Assembly (NCBI RefSeq): GCF_022899935.1
Contig: NZ_JALJCJ010000001.1
Coordinates: 1,014,053-1,078,052, forward strand
Origin: Shinella curvata
GTDB lineage: Bacteria > Pseudomonadota > Alphaproteobacteria > Rhizobiales > Rhizobiaceae
Length of the DNA: 64,000 nt
Direction: 5' to 3'
Shown here: piece by piece, positions 80-1,809 of the stretch
How positions within the stretch are numbered: the stretch's first letter is position 1
Layout: the number at the start of each line of letters is the position of its first letter
Notes under the pieces: generated by a model
Databases searched by the model: none
What the model was told of the DNA's origin: nothing
The model's input: only the letters and a program-made list of their open reading frames with translations
Position numbers and translations under genes: made by a program

Positions 80-976
80 ATGGCGCTCGACTGGGACAAG
101 CTGCGGATTTTTCATGCCGCGGCCGAGGCCGGCTCCTTCACGCATGCGGCCGACAAGCTGCACCTGTCGCAATCGGCCATCAGCCGCCAGGTGAGCGCGC
201 TCGAGCAAGATGTCGGCATCAAGCTCTTCCACCGCCATGCCCGCGGCCTGATCCTGACCGAACAGGGCGAAATCCTCTATCGCACAGCCCACGACGTGCT
301 GATGAAGCTCGAAAGCGTGCGGGTACAGCTGACGGAAAACACCGAAAAGCCGAGCGGCAAGCTGCGCATCACCACCACGGTCGGTCTCGGCCAGGGTTGG
401 CTGACCGACAAGGTGCAGGAGTTTCTGGCGCTTTACCCGGATATGCAGGTGCAGCTCATCCTCGACAACGAGGAGCTCGACGTGAACATGCGCCATGCGG
501 ACTGCGCCATCCGTCTGCGCGAACCGCAGCAATCGGATCTCATCCAGCGCCGGCTGTTCACCGTGCACATGCACATCTATGCGGCCCCCTCCTATATCAA
601 CCGCTACGGCGAGCCGCAGTCGATCGACGATCTCGACAATCACAAGATCATCACCTTCGGCGAGCCGGCTCCGAACTATCTGCTGGATGTGAACTGGCTG
701 GAGATTGCCGGACGCGATTCCGACAATCCGCGCCCCTCGGTCCTGCAAATCAACAGCCAGACCTCGATCAAGCGCGCGGCCCTGCTCGGCATCGGTATCG
801 CGATGCTGCCGGACTATATTGTCGGTCGCGATCCGGGACTTATCCAGCTGCCTGTCAGCGCCGACATCCCGTCGTTCGATACCTATTTCTGCTATCCGAG
901 CGAGATGAAAAACTCCGCGAAACTGAAGGTTTTCAGAGACTTCATCGTGGCCAAGGCGCGCAACTGGAACTTCTGA
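80..976 (+). CDS. lsrB: LysR-type regulator LsrB/VtlR
   Basis: Cytoplasmic LysR-family transcription factor of the LsrB (Sinorhizobium) / VtlR (Brucella, Agrobacterium) group, which controls redox and envelope functions and activates AbcR sRNA genes. The winged helix-turn-helix covers about residues 1-62 (AADKLHLSQSAISRQV) and the effector-binding domain about 90-298. The near full-length likeness to LsrB is recognised from memory. I chose the ATG at 80 because GGGGGAT lies just upstream; an in-frame ATG at 68 would add MGDR and has no ribosome site. Only two cysteines are present (HADCAIRL and TYFCYPSE). The downstream tandem sRNA genes and ArsR gene match the Sinorhizobium gene order and support the call. 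Confidence 0.93.
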   Translation: MALDWDKLRIFHAAAEAGSFTHAADKLHLSQSAISRQVSALEQDVGIKLFHRHARGLILTEQGEILYRTAHDVLMKLESVRVQLTENTEKPSGKLRITTTVGLGQGWLTDKVQEFLALYPDMQVQLILDNEELDVNMRHADCAIRLREPQQSDLIQRRLFTVHMHIYAAPSYINRYGEPQSIDDLDNHKIITFGEPAPNYLLDVNWLEIAGRDSDNPRPSVLQINSQTSIKRAALLGIGIAMLPDYIVGRDPGLIQLPVSADIPSFDTYFCYPSEMKNSAKLKVFRDFIVAKARNWNF

Positions 977-1005: not shown

Positions 1006-1022
1006 TGCATGGCTGGCATGCA
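1006..1022. promoter_or_regulatory. Candidate LsrB/VtlR binding site
   Basis: Perfect inverted repeat TGCAT-N7-ATGCA, fitting the T-N11-A pattern of LysR-type sites. It is centred about 53 bp before the predicted start of the first sRNA, where a LysR activator normally binds. No equivalent lies before the second sRNA. Assignment to LsrB is inference from position and from the known VtlR-AbcR link. Confidence 0.5.
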
Positions 1023-1032
1023 CATTAAAAGA

Positions 1033-1061
1033 TTGATGTATGCCCAAAAAACCATCATATC
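1033..1061 (+). promoter_or_regulatory. Promoter of first AbcR-like sRNA
   Basis: TTGATG at 1033-1038 and CATATC at 1056-1061, 17 bp apart, resemble a sigma-70 promoter. The start would fall near 1067, exactly where the 5' stem of the RNA begins. The second sRNA has the same arrangement. Confidence 0.55.
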
Positions 1062-1066
1062 GCCCG

Positions 1067-1188
1067 CAGCTGATGCATTTCGGTGGCTTTTTCCTCCCAG
1101 TGCCACCGCACCAGCTGTTCCCCTCTGGAGGTTTTATTACCTTCAAAACTATAAAGGGCCCAAGTTGATCTTGCGGCCCTCTTTTTTT
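1067..1188 (+). ncRNA. abcR: AbcR-type trans-acting sRNA, copy 1
   Basis: Predicted small RNA of about 122 nt of the alphaproteobacterial AbcR (alpha-r15) family, Hfq-dependent RNAs that silence ABC-transporter and other mRNAs by pairing near the ribosome site. A long 5' hairpin forms from CAGCTG (1067-1072 with 1112-1117) and CGGTGGC (1081-1087) with GCCACCG (1102-1108), presenting a CCUCCCAG anti-Shine-Dalgarno loop. A second conserved block, GCTGTTCCCCTCTGGAGGTT (1114-1133), follows, then a GC hairpin and seven Ts. The blocks recur in copy 2 about 213 bp downstream. Location between lsrB and an ArsR gene matches the S. meliloti abcR locus as I recall it. Which copy corresponds to AbcR1 or AbcR2 cannot be told here. 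Confidence 0.85.
1155..1188 (+). terminator. Terminator of sRNA copy 1
   Basis: AGGGCC (1155-1160) pairs with GGCCCT (1175-1180), followed by C and seven Ts. This intrinsic terminator forms the 3' end of the sRNA and the usual Hfq-binding U tail. Confidence 0.85.
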
Positions 1189-1247
1189 GCCTTGGGACAG
1201 GCGAAACAGATTTTCAACCTTGCTACGAAAGTTGGCACGCGCTTCTC

Positions 1248-1276
1248 TTGAAGAAACGCAAGCCCTATCCCATATT
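1248..1276 (+). promoter_or_regulatory. Promoter of second AbcR-like sRNA
   Basis: TTGAAG at 1248-1253 and CATATT at 1271-1276 with a 17-bp spacer. The predicted start near 1282 coincides with the first base of the RNA's 5' stem. Having its own promoter means copy 2 can be transcribed independently of copy 1. Confidence 0.6.
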
Positions 1277-1281
1277 CAGTT

Positions 1282-1399
1282 CAGCCAATGCACATGCGGT
1301 CTTTCTCCTCCCAGTGCCGCGCGTTGGCTGTTCCCCTCTGGAGGTTCTAAAACCTTCAACCTTGCAGGGCCCAAGCTTCGCTTGTGGCCCTCTTTTTTT
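1282..1399 (+). ncRNA. abcR: AbcR-type trans-acting sRNA, copy 2
   Basis: Second tandem AbcR-family sRNA, about 118 nt. CAGCCAA (1282-1288) pairs with TTGGCTG (1324-1330) and GCGG (1296-1299) with CCGC (1317-1320), again leaving a CUCCUCCCAGU loop able to mask Shine-Dalgarno sequences. The block GCTGTTCCCCTCTGGAGGTT (1327-1346) is identical to copy 1, while the stems differ by compensating changes, which is good evidence that RNA structure is conserved. It ends in a GC hairpin and a run of seven Ts. Likely partly redundant with copy 1 but with its own promoter and no LysR dyad. Confidence 0.86.
1366..1399 (+). terminator. Terminator of sRNA copy 2
   Basis: AGGGCC and GGCCCT arms around a CAAGCTTCGCTTGT loop, followed by C and seven Ts. 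Same design as the copy 1 terminator. Confidence 0.85.
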
Positions 1400-1503: not shown

Positions 1504-1809
1504 ATGACCGAACCCGACACCGACGAAATCCTCAAGGCGCTCGCCCATCCGAAGCGACTGGAGATTCTGACCTGGCTGAAGGAACCGCAGGTCCATTTCG
1601 CCGGGCAGGAACATCCTCTCGAATTCGGCGTTTGCGCCGGACAGATCGAAAAGCGTTGCGACCTTTCGCAGTCCACCGTCTCCGCCCATCTCGCCACTTT
1701 GCAGCGTGCCGGCCTCGTGACGACGCGCAAGGTCGGCCAATGGGTGTTCTTCAAACGCGACGAAGACAAGATCGCGGCCTTTCTCCACCACATCAACAGC
1801 GCCTTGTAA
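1504..1809 (+). CDS. ArsR-family repressor
   Basis: Small winged-helix repressor (101 aa), DNA-binding and cytoplasmic. The recognition region is about residues 47-72 (QIEKRCDLSQSTVSAHL). Two cysteines, Cys44 and Cys52, flank the start of the helix-turn-helix, but the classical metal-binding ELCVCD motif is absent, so the signal may be an electrophile or oxidant rather than a metal. It sits 35 bp before an old-yellow-enzyme gene on the same strand and behind a symmetric operator, so the pair looks like an autoregulated unit. The inducing signal is inference. Confidence 0.88.
   Translation: MTEPDTDEILKALAHPKRLEILTWLKEPQVHFAGQEHPLEFGVCAGQIEKRCDLSQSTVSAHLATLQRAGLVTTRKVGQWVFFKRDEDKIAAFLHHINSAL

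Follow-up and report, generated by a model that had tools for sequence, protein, structure and literature searches.

Tandem AbcR-type small RNA genes beside lsrB in Shinella curvata and the LsrB-type and RpoH-type promoters of their family

The 64,000-nucleotide stretch of DNA from the soil bacterium Shinella curvata analysed here, which we call the window, carries a tandem pair of AbcR1/AbcR2-type small RNA (sRNA) genes of the ar15 family next to lsrB, both on the + strand. Unit 1, the abcR1-type gene (predicted ends 1068..1188), matches the Rfam model RF02345 (ar15) at 1068-1185 with 101.9 bits (E 2.9e-20). Unit 2, the abcR2-type gene (predicted ends 1283..1399), matches the same model at 1283-1396 with 92.0 bits (E 9e-18). 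Each match covers the full model, positions 1-112, and the curated threshold of RF02345 is 40 bits. The Rfam scan, whose output omits two overlapping same-clan matches of lower score, listed no other match above threshold in the 64-kb window. The sequence-only reading of this region had proposed two tandem AbcR-type sRNA genes with transcripts starting near 1067 and 1282 and had suggested a covariance-model search as a check; both units score above the family threshold, and the starts predicted here, 1068 and 1283, each differ from its values by one base. The shared blocks, GC terminator and U tail that it described are likewise found where it placed them. Common to the two units, which are identical at 94 of 121 aligned columns, are the blocks CCTCCCAGTGCC and GCTGTTCCCCTCTGGAGGTT together with a GC-rich hairpin and a T run.

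Both RNAs have the ar15 architecture of three hairpins, the third being a terminator with a T run. In unit 1 the CCTCCC loop lies at 1093-1098, TTCCCCTCT at 1118-1126, the terminator hairpin at about 1155-1180 and the T run at 1182-1188. The corresponding elements of unit 2 are at 1307-1312, 1331-1339, about 1366-1391 and 1393-1399. The folds of unit 1 (z -4.65) and unit 2 (z -5.04) each beat 200 of 200 shuffles, and CCUCCC and UUCCCCUCU are unpaired in the predicted folds of both RNAs. UUCCCCUCU is a second anti-Shine-Dalgarno stretch, absent from the sequence-only reading. A profile built from the four ar15 copies of this genome gave 163 matches in 83 sources, and the best 150 of them, comprising 128 distinct sequences, formed the covariation alignment. 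Paired cells amounted to 97.7% in this alignment, which was fitted to the model and so favours pairing; with the partners slid by one to three columns, pairing was only 34-68%. Two-sided changes occurred at 15 of 30 pairs, in 180 cells as compared with 35.6 after shuffling, a number reached in none of 500 shuffles. The claim that the 5' stem is kept by compensating changes was borne out, as helix 1 has two-sided changes at 5 of 8 pairs with 99.8% of cells paired and helix 2 at 4 of 5 pairs with 99.5% paired, that is, 9 of 13 pairs for both 5' helices together. The terminator has such changes at 6 of 10 pairs. No two-sided change was found at any of the 7 pairs of the middle hairpin among the 128 distinct sequences.

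The place of the pair is conserved. The gene upstream, lsrB/vtlR (80..976, + strand; the ORF finder starts it at 68), encodes a LysR-type regulator with Pfam domains HTH_1 and LysR_substrate, and its nearest named relatives are Shinella proteins of 95-99% identity. An ArsR-type regulator gene (1504..1809, + strand; HTH_20 and HTH_5) closes the syntenic block downstream. The order lsrB - sRNA - sRNA - ArsR-type gene is that published for Agrobacterium tumefaciens (PMC7486931) and Sinorhizobium meliloti (PMC8844928), in agreement with the proposed location beside lsrB as in Rhizobiaceae. Numbered from the start at 80, the two cysteines of the window LsrB are 142 and 271, which correspond to the pair called conserved in PMC11975290. 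A third cysteine, present in LsrB of S. meliloti and of S. kummerowiae (L008), is absent from it. In the conservation sample, the 80 top-ranked of the 577 lsrB loci found, all from named genomes, we counted the core TGTTCCCCTCTGGAGG 3' of lsrB with at most two mismatches, nearly all copies being exact. Exactly two cores were present in 76 of the 80 loci, one in 3 and four in 1. In Ferirhizobium litorale (L079:4012-4740) four tandem ar15 genes follow lsrB, and LsrB boxes stand at the first, third and fourth. About 800 bases separate the two genes in locus L024, and in L062 the pair is displaced by about 1.6 kb from lsrB, which suggests insertions.

Each unit has a promoter of its own, as had been claimed, but the two are not of a single kind. 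Unit 1 has a predicted LsrB-binding box, GCATGGCTGGCAT, at -61 (1007..1019, + strand), which is an exact match to the published LsrB/VtlR consensus GCAT-N3-TG-N3-T (PMC8844928); in its extended form, GCATGGCTGGCATGCA, the box runs to 1022. It is followed by a weak sigma-70-like core, ATTGAT-N17-TCATAT (1032..1060, + strand), read against the S. meliloti consensus CTTGAC-N17-CTATAT (PMC8844928), to which it conforms at 4 of 6 positions in each hexamer. Unit 2, on the other hand, is preceded by an RpoH-type promoter, CTTGAA-N16-CCCATAT (1247..1275, + strand), which agrees with the S. meliloti RpoH1 consensus from the same source at 12 of 13 positions; its RpoH type went unnoticed in the sequence-only reading. 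An E. coli-style scan of 900-1500 returned no promoter and no terminator. We infer that this null result marks the limit of an E. coli-style consensus, and the terminators were presumably missed because their stems are bulged.

The division of promoter types extends to other lsrB loci. Promoters were scored with the published motifs, one mismatch being allowed in the LsrB box. The box was present in all 81 unit-1 promoters (42 exact) as compared with 0.9% of shuffles, and the RpoH-type core in 70 of 78 unit-2 promoters as compared with about 0.1% of shuffles; this loose RpoH test was also passed by 7 of the 81 unit-1 promoters. An LsrB-like box within one mismatch was found in 8 of the 78 unit-2 promoters, at -61 and without an RpoH core in 5 and together with an RpoH core in 3, and 3 of the 78 have neither element. 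In L078, L080, L082, L085 and L086, from Rhizobium and relatives, an LsrB box stands at -61 of both tandem genes, and no RpoH core precedes unit 2. In S. meliloti, AbcR1 requires LsrB and AbcR2 requires RpoH1 (PMC8844928); the account of S. meliloti in PMC7486931 was counted as against this. The split of LsrB versus RpoH promoters across 81 lsrB loci is an addition to what is known of the pair.

The genome has four ar15 genes. The extra two, which the sequence-only reading did not include, lie on contigs C1 (105.8 bits) and C14 (105.3 bits), and both carry LsrB boxes. Each of 21 genomes of the genus, this one included, has 3 to 6 ar15 genes. Among 41 genomes spread over the order, searched with stricter filters, two genomes gave a match above threshold, both from the same family as Shinella, and three more gave weak matches. 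The LsrB box was present in all 21 other genomic copies (18 exact), a set that includes C14 and some plasmid contigs, L092 being apparently the same record as the plasmid locus L118. Among 20 other extra-copy loci of the genus, similarity to the C14 copy reaches well into both flanks in only 4 (L094, L095, L102 and L108), so the location of this copy varies. The C1 copy is on a 116-kb contig and adjoins a DUF1419 ORF, with ParB_N and DUF3991/Toprim ORFs nearby; 451 plasmid records match the surrounding 14 kb, none of them over more than 80% of the stretch. In a tree built from 123 sRNA rows, of which 122 differ (the lsrB rows were thinned and Labrenzia L279 was left out), a starred group of 41 rows unites 20 of 26 plasmid-type rows, C1 among them, with 20 of the 21 extra copies from Shinella and a single unit-2 row on a long branch; 64 of the 119 inner branches are open, and we base no claim on the tree.

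The C1 copy itself is matched at 389 places in 373 plasmid records, 267 of them typed conjugative. Of these records 27 were sampled: 9 were hand-picked among the 60 best-ranked rows, and 18 came from a set of 60 rows taken from all along the ranking. If one mismatch is allowed, 26 of the 27 copies have the LsrB box (21 exact), and the RpoH core is absent from all 27. The exception to the box is a Labrenzia plasmid (L279:383-488; ar15, 81.4 bits), in which CCCATAT stands just 5' of the start. Plasmid-borne ar15 genes are not new in themselves, since 'p' names appear in a supplementary figure legend of PMC3712013 for members of the same family as the C1 copy; we noticed no account of their promoters there. 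Our literature search, with most subscription papers and the supplementary promoter alignment of PMC8844928 outside its scope, found no treatment of plasmid ar15 promoters, and we take this as no more than a weak sign that none exists. That nearly every extra or plasmid copy in our samples has an LsrB box adds to the known picture.

The box was also looked for across the whole genome. The extended box GCATRGSTGNNNTGCA occurs exactly at four sites in 6.07 Mb, three at ar15 genes and one at an ar14/NfeR1-type gene; the pattern was written from the three ar15 promoters, and the ar14-type site, on C12, played no part in it. Allowing one mismatch raises the number of sites to 42, but the reversed pattern then has 22, so little can be read from the weaker ones. 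The ar14/NfeR1-type RNA (L404:1501-1719, contig C12 from 165982) scores 103.6 bits against a threshold of 58.8. Its exact LsrB box is followed 61 bases on by the first of four hairpins, and the gene has four CCUCCUCCC motifs. A solute-binding-protein gene lies downstream of it. LsrB activates NfeR1, the ar14 sRNA of S. meliloti (PMC10746234).

Three other explanations of these genes have to be weighed. Unit 2 might be a decayed or redundant duplicate without a function of its own, or be made only by read-through from unit 1. Its lower model score would fit such decay, and AbcR2 of A. tumefaciens is described as having no robust activity, perhaps because motif M1 is missing (PMC7486931). We nevertheless consider this improbable, for unit 2 retains both loops, the stem and its own RpoH-type promoter, a terminator with a T run stands between the units, unit-2 genes are present in 77 of the 80 named loci (the best 80 of 577), and CCTCCC is kept in 77 of 78 unit-2 genes. 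That the region is instead coding, with a long reading frame across the pair as the real gene, has next to no probability. Open frames do span it (for example, TTG 397-1251 and TTG 1248-2966), and a hypothetical protein is annotated over the ar15 gene in some plasmid records; the long frames, however, overlap the real genes lsrB and a flavin oxidoreductase gene in other frames, and the RNA structure is conserved through two-sided changes, invariant loops and terminators. The plasmid matches with a hypothetical protein annotated under the ar15 match include H17, H21, H57, H74, H78 and H79, and these proteins are probably false ORFs.

The extra plasmid and chromosomal copies could also be passengers irrelevant to the cell, their LsrB boxes being leftovers of a recent duplication. 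We think this unlikely, while granting it real weight. A DEAD/DEAH helicase gene directly adjoins the ar15 gene in 8 of 27 plasmid loci and other plasmid genes do so elsewhere, so that the sRNA gene may simply travel along. Against this, CCTCCC is kept in 27 of 27 copies and TTCCCCTCT in 25 of 27 (26 plasmid copies, Labrenzia left out, plus C1). Over these 27 copies the median pairwise identity is 0.79 in the box region as compared with 0.27 at -130 to -76, although the conservation that starts at the box extends through the core promoter and so does not single the box out. A further reading is that transferable rhizobial plasmids, Ti plasmids and a pSymA included, carry an AbcR-type sRNA of their own that belongs to the LsrB branch and not to the RpoH branch. 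On entering a host, such a plasmid would plug into the chromosomal redox regulator LsrB and turn down the host's nutrient-uptake genes, and LsrB would act chiefly as a switch for anti-Shine-Dalgarno sRNAs of chromosome and plasmids alike. We put this reading forward tentatively, at somewhat less than even confidence.

What the RNAs may act on was addressed by a pairing test in this genome, in which the start regions of 60 solute-binding-protein genes were compared with those of 60 controls (short-chain dehydrogenases and LysR regulators). Each family contributed 30 loci, out of 30, 42, 78 and 65 matches; start codons were guessed from a rule, the window lsrB was among the controls, and the binding-protein loci L300 and L311 are neighbouring partial matches. 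Binding-protein genes paired better than the two control families with both motifs (M1, p 0.0015; M2, p 0.0004), and scrambled oligos equalled the difference in 8 of 200 cases for M1 and 1 of 200 for M2. These genes also have a stronger Shine-Dalgarno sequence (p 0.0013), and once it was subtracted the p values were 0.061 (M1) and 0.15 (M2). The proposal that the exposed loop pairs with ribosome sites thus has only moderate support: pairing is better than in the controls, but in part by way of the stronger Shine-Dalgarno sequences.

Searches with exact seeds gave no separation from the control seeds. The M1 seed CTGGGAGG before ATG gave 40 matches, 39 loci being used after one nested duplicate was left out, with 38 distinct starts and 17 ORFs of at least 100 aa; Pfam analysis of all 17 identified three solute-binding proteins and one ABC ATPase. 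The control seed GTCGGAGG gave 53 matches, 51 of them distinct, and 14 ORFs of at least 100 aa, of which 13 were scanned (L214 left out) and yielded one ABC ATPase and one ORF with a TOBE domain. Between the exact M1 seed and this control there was no clear difference in transport genes in this genome. One of the M1-seed matches falls on the C1 sRNA gene itself, on its antisense strand. The M2 seed AGAGGGGA gave 17 matches and 9 ORFs (6 scanned), and the control GAAGGGGA gave 35 matches, 30 loci examined, 28 of them distinct, and 14 ORFs, of which 4 were scanned, picked for their transport-like appearance. This comparison was discarded because GAAGGGGA retains the M2 complement and itself matched binding proteins. 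A suggestive case of a target is a pair of genes on C11 with complements of M1 and M2 at their starts, one for a glycine-betaine-type binding protein (seed C11:601347) and, about 1.2 kb on, one for a permease (C11:602591). With these p values after subtraction and the unseparated seed searches, the target step leans mainly on the literature, in which AbcR1/2 silence transport mRNAs through two anti-Shine-Dalgarno motifs acting independently (PMC8844928).

Taken together, we propose with high confidence a scheme in which an LsrB-driven abcR1 and an RpoH-driven abcR2 silence uptake mRNAs and extra copies act on the LsrB branch. The neighbouring LsrB would switch on abcR1 (1068-1188) through the box at -61, and abcR2 (1283-1399) would be transcribed separately from its RpoH-type promoter in stress and stationary phase. 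Each RNA would expose CCUCCC in the loop of its 5' hairpin and, between hairpins 1 and 2, UUCCCCUCU; both are anti-Shine-Dalgarno stretches and could pair with the ribosome-binding sites of ABC-transporter binding-protein and other uptake mRNAs, blocking translation and lowering uptake, probably with the assistance of Hfq. The C1 (plasmid-like) and C14 copies, with their LsrB boxes, should join the LsrB branch. By analogy with relatives we expect the genes to be transcribed under the control of LsrB and RpoH, and their RNAs to bind Hfq and silence targets. Should the plasmid copies function in the way that their promoters suggest, mobile plasmids would affect host nutrient uptake by RNA under the host's own regulator, an arrangement that is directly testable and bears on the fit of large plasmids to their hosts.

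Relatives are already known to have this pair in this place, with these regulators and with targets of this kind. The finding is correct and mostly ordinary. AbcR1 and AbcR2 of S. meliloti (SmelC412/SmelC411), also ar15, likewise stand in tandem between lsrB and an ArsR-type gene (PMC8844928, PMC7143759), with an LsrB box in PabcR1, an RpoH1-type PabcR2 and two anti-Shine-Dalgarno motifs, as here (PMC8844928); the sequences differ, and the Shinella wiring is a prediction from motifs. A. tumefaciens has the same order, vtlR - abcR1 - abcR2 - arsR, and its VtlR binds and activates abcR1 (PMC7486931). Its AbcR2 is reportedly without motif M1, whereas Shinella unit 2 retains CCTCCCAG. NfeR1 of S. 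meliloti, of the ar14 family, is also an anti-Shine-Dalgarno loop sRNA under LsrB (PMC10746234), and the Shinella member on C12 has an exact box at -61. It differs from ar15 in family and structure, with CCUCCUCCC loops, and the C12 gene has four predicted loops whereas the ar14 model covers three. Beside these systems the window pair is a clean Shinella example of a well-studied sRNA pair, and most of the 81 lsrB loci examined share its two-input wiring by LsrB and RpoH.
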